Shown piece after piece: positions 7,862 to 35,818 of a DNA stretch of 35,818 nucleotides. Numbering within the stretch: position 1 is the first letter of the stretch; the number at the start of each line of letters is the position of its first letter. Source of the stretch: Frankiaceae bacterium (GTDB lineage: Bacteria > Actinomycetota > Actinomycetes > BP-191); contig DATMES010000011.1 of NCBI GenBank assembly GCA_035556555.1, positions 1-35,818 on the forward strand. Direction: 5' to 3'. The notes under the pieces were generated by a model. The model did not search any database. It was not told where the DNA came from and saw only the letters and a list, made by a program, of their open reading frames with translations. The position numbers and the translations under genes were made by a program.

Positions 7862-9142
7862 ATGCCCCTGCGCCGCCGTACCCTCGTCGCGCTCGCCGCC
7901 GTCGCGCTCGCCACCCCCACGGCGAACGCCGCCGTCGTCCCCGGGATCGGCGCGTTCTCCTCGGCCAACGTCACCTGGCACGGCACGCTCCCCGTCGACG
8001 TCCCCGGCATCGGCGCCGACGTCGTGACGGTCGGCGGCCAGCGCCGCTTCTACGTCACGGGCGCCCGCGGCCTGTCGATCTACGACGTGACCGACCCGGC
8101 GCTCCCGATCCCGCTCGGCCACCTCGAGCTGCCGCACTTCGAGAACGAAGCCGTCGCCGTCGCGCGCGACGGCTCGGTCGCGATCATCGCGTCGGAGGCC
8201 GGCCTGACGACGTACGTCGTCGACACCACCAACCCCGCGGTCCCGACGCTGGCGAGTGTCATCGCCGAGGGCACGCACACCGCCGCCTGCTCGGACGCGG
8301 AGTGCAGCTACCTGTACGCGTCGTTCGGCTGGGCGTACGACCTCCGCGACCGCGCCAACCCCAAGAAGGTCGCGGACTGGGGCGGTGAGGGCTACGGCTT
8401 CACGCACGCCGCCAACCTCGACGACGCCGGCTACGTCATCGCCGACTGGTCGCTGAAGATGTACGACCCGAGGACCGACCCCGCGAGCCCGACGCTGGTC
8501 GCGGAGATGGGTGACATCTCCGGGCAGCAGGTCAGCCTCGGTCACAACAACCAACGCCCCGACGCCGACCTCTGGCAGCCGCGCGCGGCCGGCGACACGA
8601 GCCCCGGGCTGCGCCCCGGCGAGTTGCTGCTCACCGGCGGCGAGACGCTGTCGACAGGCAGCTGCCCGGGCGGCTCCGGCATCACGTCGTGGAGCATCGC
8701 CAACTTCGACCGCGGCGCGACGTTCACGCCGCTCGACACGTTCTACCCGAGCGCCGGCAACTACGTGGACGGCAATCCGGCGGTCAACGCGCTGGGCTGC
8801 AGCAGTCACTGGTTCGACTACCGCGACGGCGTCGTCGCGGCGGGCTGGTACGAGAACGGCGTCCGCTTCTTCGACGTGCACCGCACGACCGGCGACATCA
8901 CCGAGGTCGGCTGGTACCAGCCCGTCGCGACGGAGGCGTGGGCGGCGTACTGGATCGACGACGAGTACGTCTACTCGGTCGACGCGGTCCGCGGCATCGA
9001 CATCCTCCGCTTCGACAGGGACGCCGCGCCGCCGGCGCAGAGCCAGAGCGACGCCTCCTGGCGTCTCGACCCGAACCGTCCCCTCAGCTTCGTCAGCCGG
9101 CGCGAGCGGCTCCTGTGCAGCCAGGCCCAGAGGCGCGCGTGA
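7862..9142 (+). CDS. LVIVD-repeat secreted beta-propeller protein, copy 1
   Basis: This protein of about 426 residues has a signal peptide (MPLRRRTLVALAAVALATPT, then ANAA) and LVIVD-type repeats. Visible repeats include GLSIYDVTDPALPIPLGHLE, TYVVDTTNPAVPTLASVI, YDLRDRANPKKVADW, MYDPRTDPASPTLVAEM, VRFFDVHRTTGDITEVGWY and GIDILRFDRDAAPP. Each has the D-[VTR]-[ST]-[DN]-P turn typical of the LVIVD family, which folds as a beta-propeller on the cell surface or outside the cell. Start: ATG 7862, because the frame upstream lacks a signal peptide. The next gene is a close paralogue whose ATG overlaps this stop codon (TGATG), so the two are translationally coupled. Their substrate or partner is unknown. 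Confidence 0.88.
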   Translation: MPLRRRTLVALAAVALATPTANAAVVPGIGAFSSANVTWHGTLPVDVPGIGADVVTVGGQRRFYVTGARGLSIYDVTDPALPIPLGHLELPHFENEAVAVARDGSVAIIASEAGLTTYVVDTTNPAVPTLASVIAEGTHTAACSDAECSYLYASFGWAYDLRDRANPKKVADWGGEGYGFTHAANLDDAGYVIADWSLKMYDPRTDPASPTLVAEMGDISGQQVSLGHNNQRPDADLWQPRAAGDTSPGLRPGELLLTGGETLSTGSCPGGSGITSWSIANFDRGATFTPLDTFYPSAGNYVDGNPAVNALGCSSHWFDYRDGVVAAGWYENGVRFFDVHRTTGDITEVGWYQPVATEAWAAYWIDDEYVYSVDAVRGIDILRFDRDAAPPAQSQSDASWRLDPNRPLSFVSRRERLLCSQAQRRA

Positions 9143-10413
9143 TGGCCGTACGACGGCGCACGCTCGCCGCGGTCGTCTCCCTCGCGTTCAGCGTCCCTGT
9201 GAGCGGCCCCGCCACGGGCGACCCCGGCGTCGGCGGCTTCATGTCCACGAACGTCACGTGGCAGGGCACGATCCCCGTCGACGTCCCCGGCATCGGCGCG
9301 AAGGTCGTCACGGTCGGCACGCAGCGCCGCTTCTACGTCACCGGCCTGCGCGGGCTGACCATCTACGACGTCACGAACCCGATGGTCCCCGTGCCGCTCG
9401 GCCACCTCGAGCTGCCGCACTTCGAGAACGAAGCGGTCTCCGTCGCGCGCGACGGCTCGGTGGCGATCATCGCGTCGGAGATCCCCTCGGCGACGTACGT
9501 CGTCGACACCACGAACCCGCTCGTACCGAGGCTGGCCAGCACGATCGAGGAGGGCTCGCACACGGTCGCCTGCTCCGACGCGAGGTGCAGCTACCTGTAC
9601 GCGTCGTTCGGCTGGGCGTACGACATCCGCGACCGCGCCAACCCGAAGCCCGCCGGGCGGTGGGGCGGCAGCGGACACGCCGCCAACCTCGACGCCGCCG
9701 GCTTCCTCGTCTCCGACGGCGGGCTGCAGATGTTCGACCCGCGCCGCGACCCCGCGAACCCGCGCAAGGTCGCGACGCGGCCGAAGTTCGCCGGCAGGCC
9801 GACCAGCGCCGGGCACAACAACATCCGCCCCGACGCGGACCAGTGGCGGCCGCGCCGCAAGGGCGACACCAGCCCGGCGCTGCGACCGGGCGAGTTGCTG
9901 CTCTCCGGCGGCGAGACGATGAACACCGTCTCCTGCCCCGGCGGCTCCGGGATCACGTCATGGAGCATCGCGAACTTCGACCGCGGCGAGCGGTACAAGG
10001 CGCTCGACACGTTCTTCCCGAAGGCCGGCAACTACGCCGACGGCAACCCCGCCGTCAACGCCGTCGGCTGCTCGAGCCACTGGTTCGACTACCGCAAGGG
10101 CGTCGTCGCGGCCGGCTGGTACGAGAACGGCATCCGCTTCTTCGACGTCCATCGCACGACCGGCAGGATCACCGAGGTGGGCTGGTTCCAGCCGGTCGCG
10201 ACGGAGGCCTGGGCGGCGTACTGGATCGACGACGAGTACGTCTACTCGGTCGACGCGGCGCGCGGCATCGACATCCTGCGCTTCGACCGCACGGCGAAGC
10301 GGCCCACGCAGAGCCAGAGTGACGGGTCGTGGCGCGTCGGCCCGAACCGCCCGATCAGCTTCGTCACGCAGCGCGAGCGCTACCTCTGCTCGCTCGCGCA
10401 GCGCGGCCGCTGA
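9142..10413 (+). CDS. LVIVD-repeat secreted beta-propeller protein, copy 2
   Basis: A tandem paralogue of the preceding gene, about 423 residues. It begins MAVRRRTLAAVVSLAFSVPV, a weaker signal peptide with cleavage probably near GPATG. Long blocks are identical or nearly so to copy 1, for example VTWQGTIPVDVPGIGAKVVT against VTWHGTLPVDVPGIGADVVT, SCPGGSGITSWSIANFDRG, and AYWIDDEYVYSVDA in both. The LVIVD-type motifs recur at equivalent places (GLTIYDVTNPMVPVPLGHLE, TYVVDTTNPLVPRLAST). Differences include a shorter loop after the DIRDRANPKPAGRWGG segment. The start codon overlaps the stop of copy 1 by one base. The high identity points to a fairly recent duplication or ongoing gene conversion. 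Confidence 0.88.
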   Translation: MAVRRRTLAAVVSLAFSVPVSGPATGDPGVGGFMSTNVTWQGTIPVDVPGIGAKVVTVGTQRRFYVTGLRGLTIYDVTNPMVPVPLGHLELPHFENEAVSVARDGSVAIIASEIPSATYVVDTTNPLVPRLASTIEEGSHTVACSDARCSYLYASFGWAYDIRDRANPKPAGRWGGSGHAANLDAAGFLVSDGGLQMFDPRRDPANPRKVATRPKFAGRPTSAGHNNIRPDADQWRPRRKGDTSPALRPGELLLSGGETMNTVSCPGGSGITSWSIANFDRGERYKALDTFFPKAGNYADGNPAVNAVGCSSHWFDYRKGVVAAGWYENGIRFFDVHRTTGRITEVGWFQPVATEAWAAYWIDDEYVYSVDAARGIDILRFDRTAKRPTQSQSDGSWRVGPNRPISFVTQRERYLCSLAQRGR

Positions 10414-10516: not shown

Positions 10517-11062
10517 ATGCGCATCCGTACCCTCGTCGCGGCGTTCGGCGCCGCGACCCTCCTCGTCGGTCTCGGCGCCGCGCCGGCGTCCGCCGGCGAC
10601 GGCCCGTCCGAGTACTGCGGCGACGGCATCCCGTCGAGCGGCCACGTCGAGGTCCCGCTCGTCAACACGCCCGTCACGCTCGGCCTCGAGGTCGTGTATT
10701 CGCCCGCCGGCCAGGTGCACATCTGCTACAGCACGACGCCGTACGGCCAGCCGGGCGGCATCGGCGGCGAGATCGCCATCCTCGCCGGCACCGACTCCGC
10801 CAACCCGTCCGTGACCGCGTACGTGGTCTGCGTCCAGGACGCCCCCGTGATCGTCGGTACGCAGGTGCTCTGCTGGGAGGGCGCGTCCGTCGACCTCGGC
10901 GACGTCACGATCGGCACCCCCGGCAGCGGCCTCTGCCTGAGCTACCAGGGCGTCTGCCTCGTCGAGGTGCCGCTCGTGTCGGTCGCCGGGCACCCCGACC
11001 CCAACCGTCACCTCATCTCGCTCTACGTCCTGGGGCAGTGGCACCACATCGACCTCGCGTAG
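10517..11062 (+). CDS. Small secreted protein of unknown function
   Basis: This 181-residue protein has a signal peptide (MRIRTLVAAFGAATLLVGLG, then AAPASA). The mature part is Gly-, Val- and Ser-rich with cysteines in YCGDG, HICYST, VVCVQD, VLCWEG, GLCLSY and GVCLVE, giving up to three disulfide bonds. The pattern of short hydrophobic strands suggests a beta-sandwich. AGGAG at 10507-10511, five bases before the ATG, supports the start. The gene follows the LVIVD pair by about 100 bp in the same direction and could share their export setting. No family recognised. Confidence 0.75.
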   Translation: MRIRTLVAAFGAATLLVGLGAAPASAGDGPSEYCGDGIPSSGHVEVPLVNTPVTLGLEVVYSPAGQVHICYSTTPYGQPGGIGGEIAILAGTDSANPSVTAYVVCVQDAPVIVGTQVLCWEGASVDLGDVTIGTPGSGLCLSYQGVCLVEVPLVSVAGHPDPNRHLISLYVLGQWHHIDLA

Positions 11063-11079
11063 CCCGCGGTCCACGACGC

Positions 11080-11113
11080 GCCGCCGATTGGGGCATTCGC
11101 CCGAATCGGCGGC
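11080..11113 (+). terminator. Strong GC-rich terminator hairpin
   Basis: GCCGCCGATT (11080-11089) pairs perfectly with AATCGGCGGC (11104-11113); an inner GGGC/GCCC pairing extends the stem. It lies 17 bp after the stop of the secreted-protein gene and just before the promoter of the next operon, so it insulates the two. Confidence 0.7.
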
Positions 11114-11124
11114 CGTCGCCGCGT

Positions 11125-11130
11125 TAGCCT
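11125..11130 (+). promoter_or_regulatory. -10 box for leaderless transcript
   Basis: TAGCCT (11125-11130) fits the actinobacterial TANNNT -10 element. The GTG start lies 7 bases after its end, exactly where transcription should begin, and there is no ribosome binding site in between. The mRNA is therefore predicted to be leaderless. Confidence 0.55.
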
Positions 11131-11136
11131 GGACGC

Positions 11137-12069
11137 GTGGCAGCGGCCGGGACGGCGCCTGACCGGAGCTCTTTCCGGCACGAGGCGCTCTTCTACGCGG
11201 GGGACGCCGACTTCGTCGCGCGCACCGTGCCGTTCATCCTCGACGGCGTCGCCCACGGCGAGCCGGTACTCGTCGTCGTCCCCGGGTCCAAGCTGGCGCT
11301 GCTCCGCGACGCGCTCGGGCGCGAAGCCGACGGGGTGACGTTCGGCGACATGGACGCCGTCGGCAGGAACCCGTCGCGCATCATCCCGGTCTGGCGCCGC
11401 TTCGAGGCCGACCGCCCGCCGGGCCGCCCCGCGCGCGGCATCGGCGAGCCTGTGCACCCGGCGCGGAGCGCCGACGAGCTCGTCGAGTGCCGCCGGCACG
11501 AGACGCTGCTCAACGTCGCCTTCGCCGGGACGTACGACTGGTCGCTGGTCTGCCCGTACGACGTCGCCGCGCTCCCGCCCGACGTCGTCGCCGAGGCGAT
11601 GACGACGCATCCGTACGTGCGCGACGAGGGCACCAGCGCGGTGTACCAGATCGACCTCCCCGACGACCCGCTGCCGCCGCGGCCGGCGAACGCCGTCGAG
11701 CTGACCTTCGGCGGCCGTGACCCGCTCGACGTGGTGCACACGTTCGTCCGCGGCAACGCCGCCGCGGCGGGTCTCTCGCTGGCACGCATCGACGACCTCG
11801 CCATGGCCGTGCACGAGCTGGCCATCAACTCGCTGACGCATGCGGGCGGCCGCGGCGTGGTGGCGTTCTGGCACGACGAGGGCGACGTGTTCTGCGAGGT
11901 CCGCGACGCCGGCATCATCCGCGACCCGCTGGTGGGGCGTACGGACCCGGAGCTGGAGCAGGAGGGTGGCCGCGGCGTGTGGATCGTCAACCGGCTCTGC
12001 GACCTCGTGCAGGTCCGTTCGTCGGCGGCGGGCACGTCGATCCGCGTCCGGATGTCGCTCGCGCGGTGA
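11137..12069 (+). CDS. MEDS domain - HATPase anti-sigma-type regulator
   Basis: This 310-residue protein has two domains. The N-terminal MEDS (DcmR-type sensory) domain covers about residues 12-175: FRHEALFYAGDADFVARTVP, HGEPVLVVVPGSKLALLRDA, then a long helical stretch ending WSLVCPYDVAALPPDVVAEA. The C-terminal HATPase_c_2 domain of the RsbW type covers about 190-308, with N-box HELAINSLTHAG, G1 box EVRDAG and G2 box GGRGVWIVNRLCDLV. Proteins of this build act as serine kinases or anti-sigma factors controlling SigB/F-type sigma factors. The STAS-sigma fusion at 1982 is a natural candidate partner, though not linked directly. It opens an operon with the Nif3-like gene, whose GTG overlaps this stop (GTGA). 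Start GTG 11137 is supported by the -10 box immediately upstream. Confidence 0.9.
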   Translation: MAAAGTAPDRSSFRHEALFYAGDADFVARTVPFILDGVAHGEPVLVVVPGSKLALLRDALGREADGVTFGDMDAVGRNPSRIIPVWRRFEADRPPGRPARGIGEPVHPARSADELVECRRHETLLNVAFAGTYDWSLVCPYDVAALPPDVVAEAMTTHPYVRDEGTSAVYQIDLPDDPLPPRPANAVELTFGGRDPLDVVHTFVRGNAAAAGLSLARIDDLAMAVHELAINSLTHAGGRGVVAFWHDEGDVFCEVRDAGIIRDPLVGRTDPELEQEGGRGVWIVNRLCDLVQVRSSAAGTSIRVRMSLAR

Positions 12070-23084: not shown

Positions 23085-23488
23085 GAACGAGTCGGCCGGA
23101 CGGTCGCGTCGTCGCGCGAGCGGCGCCGAGGAAAGTCCGGGCTCCACAGGGCAGGGTGGTCGGTAACACCGACCCGGGGTGACCCGCGGGACAGTGCCAC
23201 AGAGAACAAACCGCCTCCGCGCTTCGGCGCGGCGGTAAGGGTGAAACGGTGGTGTAAGAGACCACCAGCGCCCCGGGTGACCGGGGCGGCTCGGCAAACC
23301 CCACCTGGAGCAAGGTCGAAAGGGCTCTGCTGGTTTCGTGCCGGCGGGGCCTGCGCAGGCGTTCGAGGGTGGCCCGCCCGAGCCTGCGGGTGGACCGCTA
23401 GAGGTCGCCGGCAACGGCGACCCGAGATGGATGACCGTCACGTCGGCTCGCCGGCGTAACAGGACCCGGCTTACAGGCCGGCTCGTTC
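23085..23488 (+). ncRNA. rnpB: RNase P RNA, bacterial class A
   Basis: This is the catalytic RNA of RNase P, which removes 5' leaders from pre-tRNAs. Conserved blocks in the right order are GAGGAAAGTCCGGGCTCC (23130s), CACAGGGCAGG, ACAGTGCCACAGAGAACAAA, the GGTAAGGGTGAAACGGTGG region, GTAAGAGACCACCAGC, GGCAAACCCCACCTGGAGCA, AGATGGATGACC, and the 3' block ACAGGACCCGGCTTACAGG. The ends pair to form P1: GAACGAG near 23085 with CTCGTTC ending at 23488. Length is about 404 nt, normal for actinobacteria. Exact ends are inferred from P1 pairing. Confidence 0.95.
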
Positions 23489-23494
23489 GCCCCA

Positions 23495-28900: not shown

Positions 28901-29675
28901 TCAGTTCCCAAAGCCGGTGAAGCGCCTCCACCAAGAGGGCGTAGTGCTGCGGGCTCCGGTCACCTGCCTCGTGCGCGACTTCGAGGTCGATGCGCGCCTG
29001 TCGTAGAAGCTGGAGGGGATCCTCGGCCCTTCGGGCTAGGAACAGCCCGGCGGAGCCGCGCTTCCCGCGCCAGTCCTTGCGTCGCCTTTGATCGAAGCTG
29101 TAGTCGGCGGCCTCGACCACCTTCCAAGAGTCGAACGCAAGGCCGAGAGCGACCTTCGCCCTCGCATCCTCTATCTCGTTCCGCCTCCTGCTCAGGAGCA
29201 GTGCTAGGCGGTAAAGCTGGCCTCCGAGCCGGAGATTCACCTCCCGCCACGTACCCCAGGTGTTCAGCCCTGCCTCGGCTAGCGCCTTCTGCACTCGTTC
29301 CGGGTCGAGTCGGAACGCGTACTGGACCTTGAGCGCGACCAAGAGCCACCCCGGCTCGTCACTGCGCTTGCCAGCGTCGAGCGCGGCCTTCCAGGCACTC
29401 CCGATGCTCAAGACGGGATGGTCCCCACAGAGTTCGAGCCAAAGCACGTCGGAGCCGAGGATGCTCTGGGCTTGCGCCACGACCGTTGGTTCGCCGAGAC
29501 CTAGGGCCTCGATCGTTTGCTCAAGCGGGTGTGTGAGCACTTCCGTCGGTCGAGGCAGCGCGCCGGCGAGGGCAGCCCGTGGGGATGCTGCACCGCCGCG
29601 AGTTCGAGCCCCGTTCCCAGCACCGGGATCTAACGGCCGTCGCGTAGGCATCTGCGACGGCGATGGTCTTTGCAT
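25977..29675 (-). CDS. Helical-repeat protein with C-terminal phosphotransferase-like kinase domain
   Basis: The protein has 1232 residues from ATG 29675, chosen because AGGGGG lies six bases upstream. Residues about 50-860 are a helical solenoid with TPR-like pairs, for example YALLVEALHRLWELNRDVAL, then LLRRALQDLRLGESHDAKFV, then LLGLLADALYKRARPWRSSR. An acidic loop (GFDDDEDPGDEEP) lies inside. Residues about 905-1190 resemble the aminoglycoside/choline phosphotransferase kinase fold. N-lobe lysine is Lys929 in ATLVLKPL with a following Glu-rich helix (EKERQSLLRL). The hinge is LLVTRHAGG. The catalytic loop GKRDAHADNWIV gives Asp1078 and Asn1083, and the metal-binding Asp1096 is in IVALDLQ. 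The standard HGD reads KRD. Third-codon G/C is lower than in core genes. It lies between an OrfA-like relic and an integrase relic, so it is probably island cargo. Substrate unknown. Confidence 0.8.
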   Translation of the reverse strand: MQRPSPSQMPTRRPLDPGAGNGARTRGGAASPRAALAGALPRPTEVLTHPLEQTIEALGLGEPTVVAQAQSILGSDVLWLELCGDHPVLSIGSAWKAALDAGKRSDEPGWLLVALKVQYAFRLDPERVQKALAEAGLNTWGTWREVNLRLGGQLYRLALLLSRRRNEIEDARAKVALGLAFDSWKVVEAADYSFDQRRRKDWRGKRGSAGLFLARRAEDPLQLLRQARIDLEVAHEAGDRSPQHYALLVEALHRLWELNRDVALLHRAFDLLREVSRMPGGDSAELLEALGQHLFLRGMLALKPSAAQRAGFDDDEDPGDEEPTTSVSARLRAADSALAGAVAVFDQALRKGRAGRGDSTVTRIARGTALGRRAHARRLMGIDAEALLRRALQDLRLGESHDAKFVAPYAATIRLQLARLGLRPGGDHDEAGRLAREGVEIWSDRRESDDPVIVDLRRVAAQARLQLATAHGERYAVLHALRDALSLPAGAREKLGAAAVAYAGRALLPPQPWPPYGPLALPSSGEPEQPERGVIRAAVDHLATLAERGTPEHRQFAASHGAALLALADTNGPVSTCDSAVVERVYALAKSAHLAVAGHSHPVVLIQVGRASMRLARCVQDDPERVALLYGEAIAAVESAVGLAGLAEADGSPVKEARPRRWRGGAEGPHIGVGSNASVSAVPAELAGDVDLGEPGEPPEGFSGHPAGSPDPGRLASLLGEAHLRLAALRRDAQRASIAATWLEASRSWGNDSPELLGLLADALYKRARPWRSSRSELEADLRQVLALKSEARTRQDANRENLSVSAAAATRLWMLTGAPSDYINAVDQAVGAAAVDPAWPWPLIQLAQLAEADDRLRAQVPVNPPAPALRPAALWEAVRDGRAQSLLERACTLAAESEEFGRQILGGISRTFIVADPHGLLSATLVLKPLDSGTAEKERQSLLRLQDWLRQHEAPDWMALSEPLAVIANPRDQRSSLLVTRHAGGRIFRSVLAEAGTEFDRSGAKAKNHLNRVVEYLALILAMRGKAPTKARSKWRTTTKRDMSARCRRLGFKEPEEWLASWLDAVPAELPLVGKRDAHADNWIVTDRGFIVALDLQATGWLPLTAEVAQLFEDTPALEVSEAGMATRRNFLRAHLDAVRAQAPQGLVDDMAAVDLDVAWSGYQAFSMLRALFLVDKFSDPTYGSSGSVAFSRSRAAHGRRLIDYLASEAVDMRLRELAGRAAHYLRHDDI

Positions 29676-29923
29676 CGTGGACCCCCTGGCGTTTAACGTA
29701 CGACACCCGTCGGCCTGATGCGGCCGCAACTGCGGTTTCGCGAAGGATGGTCCGACGGCAGCTCGCGCCTGCGGCGCTCGTGGACATCCGCAGCTCTCCG
29801 GCGTAGGGCTCCCCGTCAGACACGTAAGCCGGCAGACGTCCTGTAGAGGCTGTCCGCCATCGACGATCCTTCGCGCCGAAGCACGCTCGGCGTGTCGGAC
29901 TGTTCCTGCGGCGGCTCGCCAGG
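29676..29923. other. Upstream region of the TPR-kinase gene
   Basis: About 250 bp. The TPR-kinase frame stays open to a TTG at 29729, but there is no ribosome binding site there. The rest up to the integrase relic carries no recognisable gene. No clear promoter box found. Confidence 0.4.
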
Positions 29924-30150
29924 TTATAGCGCCACTGCGCCGCCGTAGAGGTTGTCGAGGACCGCGGCTGTCTCGTGAAGCTGTTCGGGAACAGGTGGCC
30001 GTAGGTGTCTCCTGCGATTGTCTGCGTCGGTGAGCAGCAGCAAACCGCTGGGACGGTCGCCGGCGGCGAGGTCAACGGCCCGGCTGACCGCTGGCGGGAG
30101 CGGGAGCGGGCCACGACCTTGCCGCCCTTGCCGCGGGGGCAGGTCGGTGG
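29924..30150 (-). pseudogene. Tyrosine integrase relic
   Basis: The minus strand carries the C-terminal part of a phage-type integrase in pieces. GKGGKVV (about 30115-30135) corresponds to the beta-hairpin motif. After a frameshift LPPAVSRAVDLAAGDRPSGL follows. After a deletion that removes the HxxR box comes TIAGDTYGHLFP with the catalytic Tyr, then another frameshift and EQLHETAAVLDNLYGGAVAL before the TAA at 29924. The catalytic Arg and His are missing and two frame changes are present, so it is dead. It marks a former integrated element between the TPR-kinase and beta-trefoil genes. Confidence 0.8.
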
Positions 30151-30237
30151 GGCGAGATGCGGGATGAGGGGGCGCTCCTGTGACCGTCCCCATCCCGGGC
30201 GTCTGGGGATGCCATCTCGGCCATCTCGAGGATTGCG

Positions 30238-30243
30238 TAGATT
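30238..30243 (+). promoter_or_regulatory. -10 box for leaderless beta-trefoil gene
   Basis: TAGATT (30238-30243) fits TANNNT; the GTG start (30250) lies at the expected transcription start with no ribosome binding site between, predicting a leaderless mRNA. Confidence 0.5.
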
Positions 30244-30249
30244 CAGACG

Positions 30250-30834
30250 GTGGGCTTGTCAGATAAGGCGCTCGACGAAGCGTCGGCGCTCGTCCGCGGA
30301 GCTGCGCGGCTGGTCACGACTCGGCGAGCCTCAAGGCTCCGGTTCGGCTCTCGTGTGTGCATTCGGGTCGACGATGGTTCCCTGCTGCGTACGGACGACG
30401 CCGGGTCGCTGATCGGAGGCACCCGCCAGTTCACGGAAGAAAGCTCCTTCGTGCTCGTGGCGCCGGGTGAGGACTTCCGGACGATCTTGGGTCGGCGGCT
30501 TAGATTCGGCGACTACGTTGGATTCCGCGACGAGCGGCGGCAACTCTTCCTCGGAGTGGACTTCGACAACGACGCGGTCTGGACTTGCCACGGTCCTCAG
30601 CTTCGAGAGTGGGAGACCCTGCGAATCGAGCGAGGCAACGGTCCCCCTGCATCTCGAAGGGAGCGTTCGCACTTCGTCAACTTCGGCGACTATGTAACGT
30701 TGAGTGTGCATGCCAGGTGGCGGGGCGATAGTTGGCGGTACCTTCAGTATCGGCGTGATACATCGCGAGTCCATGGGTACGCGCCGTCGGTCGGTACGTG
30801 GGAGACCTTCGTGCTGCGTCCAGTCCCGGACTGA
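30250..30834 (+). CDS. Predicted beta-trefoil (fascin-like) protein
   Basis: This 194-residue protein has a short helical N-terminus (about residues 1-28) and three similar units. Unit one is FGSRVCIRVDDGSLLRTDD to SSFVLVAPG. Unit two is RFGDYVGFRDERRQLFL to REWETLRIERG. Unit three is NFGDYVTLSVHARWRGDSW to GTWETFVLRPV. Units two and three share FGDYV at the start and WET[LF] at the end. Each unit looks like [hydrophobic strand]-G-x-[YF]-L...W-E-x-F, the pattern of fascin-like or lectin-like beta-trefoils, which bind proteins or sugars. No signal peptide, so it is predicted cytoplasmic. Third-codon G/C is low for this genome. It stands between the integrase relic and the conjugative element; its partner may be the nearby TPR-kinase protein. 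The fold is inferred by eye. Confidence 0.65.
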   Translation: MGLSDKALDEASALVRGAARLVTTRRASRLRFGSRVCIRVDDGSLLRTDDAGSLIGGTRQFTEESSFVLVAPGEDFRTILGRRLRFGDYVGFRDERRQLFLGVDFDNDAVWTCHGPQLREWETLRIERGNGPPASRRERSHFVNFGDYVTLSVHARWRGDSWRYLQYRRDTSRVHGYAPSVGTWETFVLRPVPD

Positions 30835-30993
30835 GTGAAGGGTCGAATCCCGGATCCGTCGCGCAGGCGACCTCAAAGTGCCGATCAGGGACGGCCAGAA
30901 CGCCGGCCAGTCGACGTCCGCTCATCTGCATGAGCGGCGAGAGCTCACCCGGGCGGCGACTCCTGGGACCGCCTGGGTGAGCCTGGTGCGGGG
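30835..30993. other. Boundary region of conjugative element
   Basis: About 160 bp between convergent genes. It contains GGGTCGAATCCC (30840-30851), similar to a tRNA T-arm with one loop base missing and with no other tRNA arms around it. It may be part of an attachment site. No gene seen. Confidence 0.35.
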
Positions 30994-31173
30994 TCACGCT
31001 GTCTCGCCCCGTAGTTTCGCCACTAGGGCCGCAGTGGGTACGAGGATGCGGCGTCCGATCCGGATGGTCGGGATGTCTCCGCGTCGCGCGGCCTCGAAGG
31101 CGAGCCCGCGACTGATCCGCAGGAGACGCGCCGCCTCGTCGACCGTGAGGACATCGGGCAGGTCGGTACTCAT
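30994..31173 (-). CDS. Excisionase-family helix-turn-helix protein
   Basis: This 59-residue protein is of the excisionase / AlpA-like helix-turn-helix class. The winged-helix core reads LTVDEAARLLRISRGLAFEA, then ARRGDIPTIRIGRRILVPTA, then ALVAKL. These proteins bend DNA at attachment sites and steer the integrase toward excision, or act as regulators of mobile-element genes. The ATG overlaps the upstream gene's stop codon (ATGA), so it is translated with the HTH protein. No intact integrase is in the window; it could lie outside on the right side. Confidence 0.85.
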   Translation of the reverse strand: MSTDLPDVLTVDEAARLLRISRGLAFEAARRGDIPTIRIGRRILVPTAALVAKLRGETA

Positions 31174-31409
31174 GGCGTCTCCTCGATGTCGTCGAACCAT
31201 TCGGGCCAGAGCTGGCAGGGGTGGTAGCCGAGGGCTACGGCGATGTGGTCGGCGGCGTCCCACCGGATCCGGTCTCGGGTGAACAGCCGCTGGATCGTCG
31301 ACCGGTCGACGTCGAGGTTCTCGGCGAGCGCGCACACGGTGAGGTCCCGGTCGGTAGCGAGCCGGCGCAGTGCGCGCCGCGCCGGCTCGGCCGGGAAGTA
31401 GCTCCTCAT
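31170..31409 (-). CDS. Small helix-turn-helix regulator
   Basis: This 79-residue protein has an HTH core: RRALRRLATDRDLTVCALAE, then NLDVDRSTIQRLFTRDRIRW, then DAADHIAVALGYHPCQLWP. The layout (short first helix, ALAENLDVDRSTIQRLF recognition part, then a helix ending LG.HP..LWPEW) is typical for XRE-like HTH proteins in actinobacterial integrative elements, which often end in a Trp-rich tail. It probably controls the arms of the element and may bind the 21-bp repeats at 32067-32156. The ATG overlaps the stop of the lipoprotein-like gene and the stop overlaps the ATG of the excisionase gene. Confidence 0.8.
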   Translation of the reverse strand: MRSYFPAEPARRALRRLATDRDLTVCALAENLDVDRSTIQRLFTRDRIRWDAADHIAVALGYHPCQLWPEWFDDIEETP

Positions 31410-32266: not shown

Positions 32267-33319
32267 GTGGCCTTCCTCCCGGCGGCGTCCCCGGCGACCG
32301 GGCCTGGCTCGCAGCTGCCAATCCCGAACCCGTTCGGCTTCGTCGGCGACGGCATCGGCTCGCTGATCCGCGGCCTGCTCCGCGACCTGGTCGACGACTT
32401 CCTCAAGAACCTCGCCGAGCCCGTCCTGCGCTACGTGCTACACACCCCGGACCTGCTCGCCGAACCGACGCTCCGTCGGCTCTGGGCGACGTCCTTCGCC
32501 GCGCTGTTCGTCCTCGCCGGGCTGCTCGTGGGGATCGCCGGCACCGCGATGATCACCGGATCCTCGACGCGGATGGGTGTCGCCGCCCGCGAGGCAGTCG
32601 GTGTCCGACTGGCCAGCGCGATGCTGACCGCCGCGGTCTCGTTGCCGGTCGTCGCGCTTGAGGTGCAGCTCGCCAACAAGCTCGTCGACGCGCTGACCAG
32701 CGCGGGTCTCAACGGCGTCGCCGACCCGATCTCCTCGGTGTTCATCCGGAACCTGCAAGGGGACCTCGGCAGCTCGCTCGCGCTGCTCGTGACGACGCTC
32801 GTGGCGGTCGTCTTCCTCGTCGTCCTCACCGTTCTCGGGCTGGCGCGGTGGGCCACCTTGTGGCTGCTCATCGTCCTCGCCCCCTTCGCCGCCGGGTTGA
32901 GCCTGCTCCCCTCGGGTGGCGCGGCGATGCGCGCGTGGTGGCGGCTGCAGGTCACCGCGGTGTTCCTACCGATCGCGCACGCCGTCCTCATCGCGACGTG
33001 GCTGGCGATGTTCTCCTCGGACAAGACCGGGTTCGTCGGCGCGCTCGCCGGCGTCGCCACGTTGGCGCTGATGGCGAAGCTGCCCGGCTGGGCCGCCGGA
33101 GCGGCGATGGGCCTCGACGGCGGCAACGTGATCAACAACGTCCGGCGCACCCACGGCTACGCGCGAATGGCGATCCGAACGGCTGCGGCGGCCAAGACCG
33201 GGGGTGCGAGCGAGGCGGCGCGGGCGGCTGTCGGGGTGGTCCCTCGGTTGGGCCACCGAGGGACCACCCGAGGAACCACCCCTGGCGGTTCCGTACGCGG
33301 GGCTGCTCCACCTGGCTGA
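32267..33319 (+). CDS. TrbL/VirB6-like type IV secretion membrane protein
   Basis: This protein of about 350 residues has several transmembrane helices: about residues 76-96 (SFAALFVLAGLLVGIAGTAM), 115-135 (ASAMLTAAVSLPVVALEV), 172-195 (LALLVTTLVAVVFLVVLTVL), 197-215 (WATLWLLIVLAPFAAGLSLL), 227-245 and 257-275. A basic C-terminal tail follows. The core FLKNLAEPVLRYVLHTPD and RLQVTAVFLPIAHAVLI resembles the actinobacterial VirB6/TrbL proteins that form the inner-membrane channel for DNA transfer. The only start-like codon near the ribosome binding site is GTG 32267, but the GGAGG at 32239-32243 is placed for ATC at 32249. The 3' end contains the first nested inverted repeats, and the stop codon sits in the 23-bp repeat arm. 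Confidence 0.85.
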   Translation: MAFLPAASPATGPGSQLPIPNPFGFVGDGIGSLIRGLLRDLVDDFLKNLAEPVLRYVLHTPDLLAEPTLRRLWATSFAALFVLAGLLVGIAGTAMITGSSTRMGVAAREAVGVRLASAMLTAAVSLPVVALEVQLANKLVDALTSAGLNGVADPISSVFIRNLQGDLGSSLALLVTTLVAVVFLVVLTVLGLARWATLWLLIVLAPFAAGLSLLPSGGAAMRAWWRLQVTAVFLPIAHAVLIATWLAMFSSDKTGFVGALAGVATLALMAKLPGWAAGAAMGLDGGNVINNVRRTHGYARMAIRTAAAAKTGGASEAARAAVGVVPRLGHRGTTRGTTPGGSVRGAAPPG

Positions 33320-33457
33320 CCTGCGGTTTCTCCTCGGCGTAGCCGGTCGTGGCACTTGGTCGGGGCTGCTCCGCGTAGCCGCTCCGCACCCCCGACCAAG
33401 TGCCACTCCCTCGACACGCACTTCGGAGAGGGAGGCAGGTCAGCCAGGTGGAGCAGC
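33234..33457. repeat. Nested inverted repeats between TrbL-like and pilin genes
   Basis: Perfect inverted repeats are: 15-bp arms 33234-33248 / 33255-33269; 6-bp arms GGAACC / GGTTCC (33272-33277 / 33287-33292); 17-bp arms 33349-33365 / 33390-33406 (left arm GTGGCACTTGGTCGGGG); and 23-bp arms 33302-33324 / 33435-33457, which enclose the 17-bp pair. Two tandem 12-bp units CCGAGG[GA]ACCAC (33256-33279) let the first left arm pair with either unit. GGGGCTGCTCC is repeated at 33299 and 33362. Confidence 0.92.
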
Positions 33458-33491: not shown

Positions 33492-33866
33492 GTGAGAGAG
33501 AACAAGATCAAGAAGAACAAGGACAAGGACAAGAGCGGGGGGCGGGTCAAGCGGTGGCGGCGCGGGTTCGTCGCGGCGCAGGTGGTCGTGATGGTGGGGG
33601 CGTCGAACGCGTGGGCGGCGCCGGGTGACGACGGGATGGCTCAGGTCAAGTCGTTCGCGAACAACCTCGCCAACTACGTCACCGCCATCGCCGCCAGCGT
33701 CGCGGTGCTGTTCATCGCGATCAACGGCGTCAAGTACACGACCGCCGGTGGCAGCCCCAGCCGCCAGCTCGAAGCGAAGAACGGCCTCGTCGCCGCCGGC
33801 GCCGGCCTCGCCATCGCCCTGTCCGCCCGCGTCATCGTCGGGCTCGTCGTATCGGCCCTCCAGTGA
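33492..33866 (+). CDS. Type IV secretion pilin (VirB2/TrbC-like)
   Basis: This 124-residue protein starts at GTG 33492. A very basic N-terminus (MRENKIKKNKDKDKSGGRVK) is followed by a signal-like hydrophobic stretch GFVAAQVVVMVGASNAWAA. The mature region has two transmembrane helices: NYVTAIAASVAVLFIAINGV (about residues 60-79) and GLVAAGAGLAIALSARVIVG (about 96-115), joined by KYTTAGGSPSRQLEAKN. This is the VirB2/TrbC pilin pattern, processed and assembled into the conjugative pilus. The next gene's GTG overlaps the stop (GTGA). The first 18 codons are mostly AAG, GAC and AAC and follow a purine-rich leader, which should keep the start site unstructured next to the strong hairpins upstream. 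Confidence 0.85.
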   Translation: MRENKIKKNKDKDKSGGRVKRWRRGFVAAQVVVMVGASNAWAAPGDDGMAQVKSFANNLANYVTAIAASVAVLFIAINGVKYTTAGGSPSRQLEAKNGLVAAGAGLAIALSARVIVGLVVSALQ

Positions 33867-34456
33867 CCGGCCAGCGCGTCACCGTGCCGGTTCCCGCGGA
33901 GACGGGTGTCGAGGACCGGCTCGCCGGTGCGTTGACGTTCCGCCACGCCGCCTACCTCGCCGTCGCCGCCGCGGGAGTCGCGGTGATGCTGCTCGGCGAG
34001 CGTTCGGTCGCGCGGCTGCTCGTTGGCGCGCTCGTCGCGATCGTCGGTGTCGCGGGTGCGGCCGTCCGTCCGTACGGGGAGCCGCTCGACCGGCTCGTGC
34101 CCGCGGCGCTGCTGTATCTGCGGCGTCGCGGAGGCAAGCGGAATACGGCGGCATCGAGCGAGGCCGAGGTCGCCGCGCCGTCCGTGGAGCCCGAGATCGC
34201 AGTCGAGCTGCCGGTGCCGGAGAGCGATCCCGACGACGTCGCGACACCGCGGCGACGTGTCTCGCTCCGCCCGCTCGTACCGGTTCTCGCTGCCGTCGTG
34301 GTTGTGGCGGTGGTCGTTGCGCGGTGGCCGCACCCAGCGCCGCCACCGCCCACGCGGGTGGTCGTCGTGCCGGTGCCCGTCCAGGTGGTCGACCCGTGGG
34401 AGGAGGCGATCGACGATGCGGTGGACGCGTGGCTCGACGACGTCGCCAGTTCCTGA
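33863..34456 (+). CDS. PrgI/VirB3-like type IV secretion protein
   Basis: This 197-residue protein starts at GTG 33863, overlapping the pilin stop. The first part RVTVPVPAETGVEDRLAGAL, then FRHAAYLAVAAAGVAVMLLG and RLLVGALVAIVGVAGAAVRP, matches the PrgI family, which pairs with VirB4 ATPases as VirB3 does in Agrobacterium. It has two short transmembrane helices (about residues 28-46 and 50-69). A charged linker (about 90-130) and a third helix (LVPVLAAVVVVAVVVARW, about 137-155) lead to a Pro/Val-rich segment and an acidic end DPWEEAIDDAVDAWLDDVAS. The added third helix and acidic tail are longer than in minimal PrgI proteins. It would be an inner-membrane component. Confidence 0.8.
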   Translation: MTGQRVTVPVPAETGVEDRLAGALTFRHAAYLAVAAAGVAVMLLGERSVARLLVGALVAIVGVAGAAVRPYGEPLDRLVPAALLYLRRRGGKRNTAASSEAEVAAPSVEPEIAVELPVPESDPDDVATPRRRVSLRPLVPVLAAVVVVAVVVARWPHPAPPPPTRVVVVPVPVQVVDPWEEAIDDAVDAWLDDVASS

Positions 34457-34457
34457 T

Positions 34458-35818
34458 GTGCAGGTGCTGCTCGACGCGCCGGACCTGTCGTTGCTGGACG
34501 ACGAGGGGCAGCTCGACGTGCTCGCGCGAGTGGTCGCGCTGCTCGACGCCGGCCGGACGGTGCAGGTCCGGCACGAACGTCGCGAGGTCGGTGGCGACGT
34601 CACCGGCCGGTCGGCGGAGGCCGTGCTCACGAGGCAGCTCGTGGCCGAGGCCACCGTGTGGCCTACGCAGATCGTTGGCGGCGACGTGGGCGACGGCGTC
34701 GTCCCTGATGTTGACGCGGCATCGGCTGTCGGCGTCGTTCGTGAGCACCCGACGTGCGTCGAGCTCGACGACGGTGGGTGGGCGCGAACGTTCGTGCTAT
34801 CGCGGTGGCCAGCGCAGGTGCCCGTCGGGTGGACGGGCGCGCTGCGCGGCGTCGCCGATGTGATCGTGCTGCACCTGCGTCCGGTGCCGGTCGCGGTGGC
34901 GGCCGCGCACTTCCGCCGCCGGGTCGCGACGCTGATCTCGACCGCGGCGGTGGACGAGCAGGCCGGCCGGGTGGCCGACCCGGAGACGGCGCAGGCGATC
35001 GACGCGGCCGAGGCGCTGTGGGAGTCGGTGCAGGCCGGGGCGACGACGGCATGGTGGGCGCAGCTGCTCCTCACCGTCGTTGCCGACGACCGCGCGGCGC
35101 TGGACGAACGAGCGTCACGGCTCGCGGAAGCGCTTGCTCCGTGGCGGGCAACGGCGCGGGTGGTGGCGTTCCGGCAGCGCGCCGCGTATGACGCGACGAC
35201 GGTCGGCGGTGCGCCGCTTGGTAGCCCGTGGCGGATGCTCGACGCGACCGCGGCGGCCGCGACGATCCCGGCTCCGCTCGGCCCGACCACGCCGTCGACC
35301 GGTGTGCTCGCGGGTGCGGACGAGGCGAGCGGCGCGCCGCTGCGCGTGGATCGGTTCGCGTTGCACAACCCGGCCCGGCTCGTCGTCGGAACCAGCGGTG
35401 CGGGGAAGTCCTACGCCACGAAGCTGGAGGTCTGCCGCTGGCGTGTCCGCGGCGCCGAGGCCGTCGTCGTGGACCCGGAGGGGGAGTTCACGCGGCTCGG
35501 TGACGTGCTTCAAGGCCTGGTGCTCGCGGTCGGGGAGGAGCCGGCGGGGCTCGATCCGGTCGGTCTCGCCACCCGTCCGGGACTCGCCGCCGCGGAGGGT
35601 CTCGCGGTGCTGGCGAGCGTCGCCGCTGCGCTGCTCGGCGGCGCGTTGTCGGCGGTGGACCTCGCGCTGATCGACCGGGCGCTAATGGTGCTACGCGCCG
35701 ATATCGGGCACCGCGCGACGATGGGCGACCTGCTCGGGGTGCTGGCGGACATCGAGGCGCATCCGCCGTTCACGGGTGCGGACCTCGCGGCCCGCTTGTC
35801 GCCAGCGGCGTCAGGGAG
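34458..35818 (+). CDS. VirB4-like type IV secretion ATPase (partial)
   Basis: The frame runs from GTG 34458, two bases after the PrgI-like stop codon, to the window edge: 453 codons, 3' end missing. The N-terminal domain (about residues 1-290) has the VirB4 pattern TFVLSRWPAQVPVGWTGALR, then DVIVLHLRPVPVAVAAAHFR, then TVVADDRAALDERASRLAEA and VVAFRQRAAYDATTVGGAP. The ATPase core starts with Walker A GTSGAGKS (residues 311-318) followed by YATKLEVCRWR. Walker B is AVVVDPEGEF with Asp339. VirB4 ATPases energise pilus assembly and DNA export together with the VirB3/PrgI protein upstream. The reading frame is fully open and the codon pattern is high-GC throughout. Confidence 0.9.
   Translation, partial: MQVLLDAPDLSLLDDEGQLDVLARVVALLDAGRTVQVRHERREVGGDVTGRSAEAVLTRQLVAEATVWPTQIVGGDVGDGVVPDVDAASAVGVVREHPTCVELDDGGWARTFVLSRWPAQVPVGWTGALRGVADVIVLHLRPVPVAVAAAHFRRRVATLISTAAVDEQAGRVADPETAQAIDAAEALWESVQAGATTAWWAQLLLTVVADDRAALDERASRLAEALAPWRATARVVAFRQRAAYDATTVGGAPLGSPWRMLDATAAAATIPAPLGPTTPSTGVLAGADEASGAPLRVDRFALHNPARLVVGTSGAGKSYATKLEVCRWRVRGAEAVVVDPEGEFTRLGDVLQGLVLAVGEEPAGLDPVGLATRPGLAAAEGLAVLASVAAALLGGALSAVDLALIDRALMVLRADIGHRATMGDLLGVLADIEAHPPFTGADLAARLSPAASG

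Follow-up and report, generated by a model that had tools for sequence, protein, structure and literature searches.

What is the function of the nested inverted repeats that separate the gene of a TrbL-like membrane protein from a pilin gene in this Frankiaceae bacterium? The stretch of DNA analysed (the window) comprises 35,818 nt, positions 1-35,818 of the forward strand of contig DATMES010000011.1 (assembly GCA_035556555.1), and the repeats occupy positions 33234-33457 (Table 1). An earlier note on this DNA had offered two answers, preferentially a control of the amount of pilin mRNA relative to that of TrbL and alternatively a transfer origin. Of these, the second turned out to be the best-supported reading. 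The recurrence of the interval on mobile elements, compensatory change in its arms, the relaxase encoded by complete relatives and the identical architecture in MOBC plasmids make it very probable that an integrative and conjugative element starts its transfer here, the interval being an oriT (origin of transfer) of the type used by MOBC (Replic_Relax, PF13814) relaxases.

The anatomy given in the earlier note was reproduced exactly by a repeat search of the window. Perfect inverted repeats are formed by 15-bp arms (33234-33248/33255-33269) and by the 23-bp arms of an outer repeat spanning 156 bp, within which the inner repeat is nested (33349-33369/33386-33406, 21 bp at 95%, with a perfect 17-bp core). 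The 6-bp pair also listed there is present in the minimum free energy (MFE) fold at about 33408-33413/33429-33434, and the TGA stop codon of the TrbL-like reading frame does lie in the outer left arm. Likewise, the 12-bp units CCGAGG[GA]ACCAC, two in tandem at 33256-33279 and one inverted, provide the first left arm with two partners, the perfect 15-bp pair and an alternative pairing of 86% (33233-33254/33261-33282). Folded as RNA, as had been proposed, the interval reaches an MFE of -181.2 kcal/mol, which relative to 100 dinucleotide-shuffled sequences is a z of -8.1. When the 35.8-kb window was simulated 200 times with a first-order Markov model, neither arms of at least 17 bp within 230 bp nor nested pairs with arms of at least 14 bp arose even once. 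Real sequence of this and related genomes, 466 kb in all, contained no nested pairs other than the interval itself and its copies.

Table 1. Genes and repeat features at the trbL-pilin junction of the window
Feature	Position	Strand	Basis or remark
TrbL-like (VirB6-type) membrane protein gene	32267..33319	+	TrbL_4 E=1.3e-4, below cut-off
Inverted 12-bp iteron unit GTGGTCCCTCGG	33236..33247	-	- strand reads CCGAGGGACCAC; window sequence
12-bp iteron unit CCGAGGGACCAC	33256..33267	+	Proposed relaxase binding site, by analogy with the 11-12-bp repeats of MOBC plasmids and pAD1 TraX
12-bp iteron unit CCGAGGAACCAC	33268..33279	+	Window sequence; MOBC plasmid analogy
Outer inverted repeat, left arm	33302..33324	+	Contains TrbL stop codon 33317-33319
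Inner inverted repeat, left arm	33349..33365	+	Includes octamer TGGTCGGG 33357-33364
Inner inverted repeat, right arm	33390..33406	+	Repeat search, copy alignment
Conserved motif CACTCCCTCGACA	33404..33416	+	Inner stem foot and stretch preceding outer arm; copy alignment
Outer inverted repeat, right arm	33435..33457	+	Repeat search, copy alignment
T4SS pilin gene	33492..33866	+	PF18895 E=3.6e-12
PrgI-family gene	33863..34456	+	PF12666 E=4.5e-6
VirB4-type ATPase gene	34458..35818	+	Runs off contig; 86-92% identity to VirB4 of two conjugative elements of G002

BLAST with the interval revealed three further copies in the same genome (G000; one on contig C12 and two on C63) and several more in two other genomes of the genus, G001 and G002. 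A covariance model built from six copies and searched in a 297-genome sample of the class extended the distribution to two genomes of another family, G097 and G159 (E 4e-21 to 6e-19), which brings the total to five genomes, three from this genus and two from the other family; beyond these copies nothing in the sample exceeded the model's threshold. The copy on G097:C18 occupies the same position between trbL and the pilin gene, that on G159:C21 lies in a remnant of this arrangement, and that on G097:C129 sits on a small integrative element. A pattern scan of genome contigs returned 17 stretches, among which only those of metagenome genomes of Frankiales/Frankiaceae scored with the covariance model; those from Streptomyces and others did not and were discarded as chance occurrences. 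The same kind of scan gave no match in viral contigs, and BLAST of the interval against plasmids and phages gave none either, hence no sequence similarity to a known oriT. Nor is the interval a known structured RNA, since Rfam searches at gathering score and at a relaxed E-value returned only chance hairpin matches, mostly to microRNA families and none above any gathering score. Metagenome contigs often break within these palindromes (for instance G002 C28/C95 and C4/C38) and some of the elements are therefore known only in halves. An IS481-like insertion appears to interrupt the inner loop of one copy in G001 (C63 and C30; L050:1-314, L051:84-194), of a third type, as judged by an apparent transposase C-terminus and IS end beside the break.

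The stems of the copies vary in sequence while retaining their pairing. In an alignment of nine copies that was fitted to the covariance model and hence leans towards structure, standard pairs fill 95.9% of the pair cells and double changes affect 15 of 47 pairs, as compared to 8.5 +/- 1.8 in shuffles and 1-4 with slid partners; a MAFFT alignment of six copies still has 13 of 47 pairs doubly changed. The compensatory changes that the earlier note had suggested looking for are thus present. In the two long stems few G-U cells stand beside 40 doubly changed ones, a scarcity with which a DNA palindrome is at least as compatible as an RNA. Some parts do not vary at all: the core GCTGACCTGCGG of the outer left arm is invariant in the first seven copies aligned, and CACTCCCTCG, in the region of the conserved motif CACTCCCTCGACA, is the same in all six complete copies of the alignment.

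All copies lie on integrative elements that carry a tyrosine integrase and/or a conserved trio of an XRE regulator, a 110-aa protein and a WhiB-HTH protein, and several of these elements adjoin a tRNA gene (Arg, Thr, Ser). The gene order of the conjugative ones, compiled from G002 (C23; C28+C95) and G097 (C18+C102) with the joins C28-C95 and C18-C102 inferred from contig breaks, is integrase, small HTH protein, lipoprotein, TrbL, the palindromic element, pilin, PrgI, VirB4, lysozyme/M23, TrwB, Replic_Relax, XRE, 110-aa protein, WhiB, response regulator and histidine kinase. Of such an element the window contains the left part; as its contig stops in virB4, the relaxase gene was read from the relatives. 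Further upstream, at 29500-31200, inspection by eye revealed what appears to be the C-terminal remnant of an integrase and, on the - strand, an excisionase-like HTH reading frame, which probably mark the left end of the integrated element.

Is the interval then part of the pilin operon or of the mobile module? On G000:C12, a 10.4-kb element bounded by 44-bp direct repeats (39399-39442 and 49795-49838, the 3' end of tRNA-Arg) has lost TrbL and most secretion genes and has kept Replic_Relax and the palindromic element. On G159:C21 TrbL is gone together with everything between the N-terminal part of the pilin and XRE, and again the palindromic element stays. Conversely, a related operon in G012, whose proteins are 37-58% identical, has overlapping trbL and pilin genes with no such element between them, and is also devoid of the integrase and the XRE/110-aa/WhiB trio. 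This operon (G012:C18, L084:1803-10468) comprises T4SS, Replic_Relax and two-component genes with no integrase or palindromic element nearby, and is possibly a fixed chromosomal transfer system. Survival of the palindromic element where TrbL and secretion genes are lost, and its absence from the G012 operon, argue that it belongs to the mobile module and not to pilin expression.

These observations weigh heavily on the explanation preferred in the earlier note, according to which the trbL-pilin transcript folds and adjusts the two mRNAs relative to each other through processing, attenuation or stabilisation. The very stable predicted fold and the location within an operon, flanked by two genes read in the same direction, would suit such an RNA element, and compensatory changes would fit it as well. 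However, other copies have no pilin neighbour and lie at the 3' ends of integrase, WhiB or XRE genes, a terminator-like U-tract is missing, and the ratio of G-U to doubly changed cells in the long stems is more that of a DNA palindrome. Together with the retention and absence just described, this leaves control of pilin mRNA a very improbable function of the interval.

A transfer origin, in turn, is supported by the presence of a relaxase gene. Replic_Relax genes lie on the same elements (G002:C23 8757-9227, G002:C95, G097:C102 and the small G000:C12 element), with a profile match of E=1.7e-15. Replic_Relax (PF13814) corresponds to the MobC/MOBC relaxase superfamily (PMC5357655), whose members are related to PD-(D/E)XK nucleases (PMC5714925; PMC12857230), and residues E126, R128, D139 and E156 are invariant between Replic_Relax, the pAM373 protein and the Listeria protein. 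The genome of the window encodes PF13814 proteins and, among the families searched, neither a MOBP (PF03432) nor a TrwC relaxase. As no relaxase of a classical family had been noticed at first, one of the tyrosine-recombinase kind (TcpM/MpsA-like) was entertained, an idea abandoned when Replic_Relax was identified as MOBC. A tblastn search of plasmids with the actinobacterial relaxase found no match, the proteins being too distant, and a relaxase profile search of PDB sequences gave no meaningful one. At eight other actinobacterial Replic_Relax or Replic_Relax-T4SS loci no nested repeat was present within the stretches fetched, and thus PF13814 alone does not predict the architecture.

The earlier note knew of no described element with this layout, a statement that does not hold, since pAM373 and other MOBC plasmids have it. 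In pAM373 of Enterococcus faecalis, which is typed MOBC by PLSDB, the region beside the Replic_Relax gene (NC_002630 14392-14629) contains five 12-bp direct repeats adjoining a perfect outer inverted repeat (18-bp arms, span 142 bp) with a likewise perfect inner repeat of 25-bp arms nested in it, upstream of and co-directional with the relaxase gene. Francia and Clewell reportedly described, in 2002, the oriTs of pAD1 and pAM373 as a large inverted repeat with short direct ones next to it. Four more replicons (three of Enterococcus, one of Listeria seeligeri), with relaxases 39-88% identical, share the arrangement, so that all five have 11-12-bp repeats, outer arms of 17-22 bp (with one mismatch in one replicon), inner arms of 20-29 bp and the relaxase gene in this order and in the same direction. 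Order, orientation, spacing and span (139-183 bp against 147-162 bp) agree with the actinobacterial element, in which the 12-bp array lies on the same side of the nested repeat, and CTGACC/GGTCAG occurs in a paired arm of both pAM373 and the window. There are differences too: pAM373 has five direct units whereas the window has two direct and one inverted, its relaxase gene follows 0.6 kb downstream whereas the genes from pilin to TrwB intervene in the actinobacterial elements, there is no overall sequence similarity, and the host of the window is a GC-rich actinobacterium. CloDF13, which also has a MOBC relaxase, carries GGGTGGTCGGG, which we take to be its nic sequence, in an inverted-repeat arm; TGGTCGGG is common to it and the inner left arm, and GCTGACC to it and the outer arm of the window, although the CloDF13 palindrome is shorter and imperfect. 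The interval hence most likely represents a known kind of site, a MOBC oriT, and seems to belong to a new, sequence-unrelated family in uncultured actinobacteria; a non-exhaustive search of the open-access literature found no earlier report of a MOBC-type oriT in this bacterial group.

How might such a site work? By analogy with the plasmids, the presumed N-terminal winged-helix part of the relaxase would bind the 12-bp units at 33236-33279, and the nested palindrome (33302-33457), extruded or single-stranded, would present the nick site. This enzyme, presumably a nuclease of the PD-(D/E)XK type whose gene follows later in the same operon, would then nick one strand, and the TrwB-like coupling protein together with the T4SS (TrbL, pilin, PrgI, VirB4) may pass that strand to the recipient. 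In pAD1, a relative of pAM373 whose oriT2/TraX is by the literature also among the closest known systems, the relaxase TraX is reported to bind five direct repeats that lie 70-120 bp away from nic (PMC12857230). At about that distance from the 12-bp units the nick would most likely fall within the inner stem, 33349-33406. A candidate position is 33358/33359 in TGGTCGGG; as some copies carry TGTTCGGG in place of this octamer, we regard it as a lead only.

Other functions of a palindrome on mobile elements have to be weighed against a transfer origin. Single-strand origins and primer-start hairpins (sso/ssi) are typically large, strand-specific palindromes carried by mobile elements, and a hairpin of this kind, as a rule present once per element, might convert transferred single-stranded DNA to double strands or drive rolling-circle replication of the excised element. 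We consider this improbable, as the 12-bp array, the order of units, outer and inner repeat, and the pairing with Replic_Relax match MOBC oriTs specifically; an oriT may serve in replication as well, so that the two functions are not fully exclusive. A chance insertion of a mobile palindromic repeat (MITE/REP-like) between trbL and the pilin gene could account for multiple copies, long inverted repeats and a stop codon in an arm. It would not readily explain why the orthologous position is conserved across two bacterial families (G097:C18, G002:C23 and the window), why the copies are confined to integrative elements with no target duplications noticed, or why the copies are not near-identical but have arms and 12-bp units that vary in a paired manner, and is thus even less probable than control of pilin mRNA. 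Least credible of all, and rejected, is an attachment or recombination site of the integrase (attP/attC-like). VCR-like attC sites are palindromic too, and several copies do have a tyrosine integrase gene no more than 1 kb away. Where boundaries were found, however, att is the 44-bp repeat at tRNA-Arg, 2 kb from the palindromic element; the latter is internal to the C12 element and therefore not its attachment site. Moreover, the integrases sit at tRNA-Thr/Ser/Arg genes, and the copy in the window lies inside the T4SS operon.

The two conjugative elements of G002 allow relaxase and 12-bp units to be compared. Their relaxases are 58% identical, whereas pilin, VirB4, TrwB, WhiB and the two-component proteins are 83-95% and PrgI, lipoprotein, small HTH and 110-aa protein 72-78% identical, and their 12-bp units differ (GAGGGACCACCC versus GGAGGCGCCGGT). 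This correlation fits a relaxase and units that evolve together as a specificity pair. The XRE regulators (L045:9494-9763 and G002:C95 10190-10423) are, at 54% identity, as divergent as the relaxases, a divergence that might resemble that of immunity repressors.

The small integrative elements with copies of the site are probably mobilised by the conjugative element. Integrative mobilisable elements whose oriT resembles that of their helper are a known pattern, as in SGI1 and similar elements (PMC6414798), with the difference that SGI1 has a tyrosine-recombinase-like relaxase, MpsA, and short inverted repeats in its oriT. Two small elements hold two oriT-like sites each, of different 12-bp unit types: one on G000:C63 (29559-29707 and 31042-31189; L037:9559-9707, 11042-11189) and one on G002:C4/C38. 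No relaxase or secretion genes were seen on either, and a T4SS element with the second unit type was not found. It is conceivable, though we are rather doubtful, that these satellites carry two oriT mimics, one with resident-type and one with other units, and could ride two helpers.

To our knowledge, experiments have established MOBC oriTs in only a handful of plasmids. Another set, of the same architecture but unrelated in sequence, indicates which parts are likely to be essential, and suggests that oriTs can be found by architecture instead of sequence. It also shows how small integrative elements could hitch-hike in these bacteria, and makes natural pairs of relaxase and 12-bp unit type available for studying specificity.

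Elsewhere in the window, a class A RNase P RNA lies at 23088-23489 (Rfam, 289.8 bits), and 7862-9142 and 9115-10413 encode tandem paralogous secreted proteins that are closely alike.
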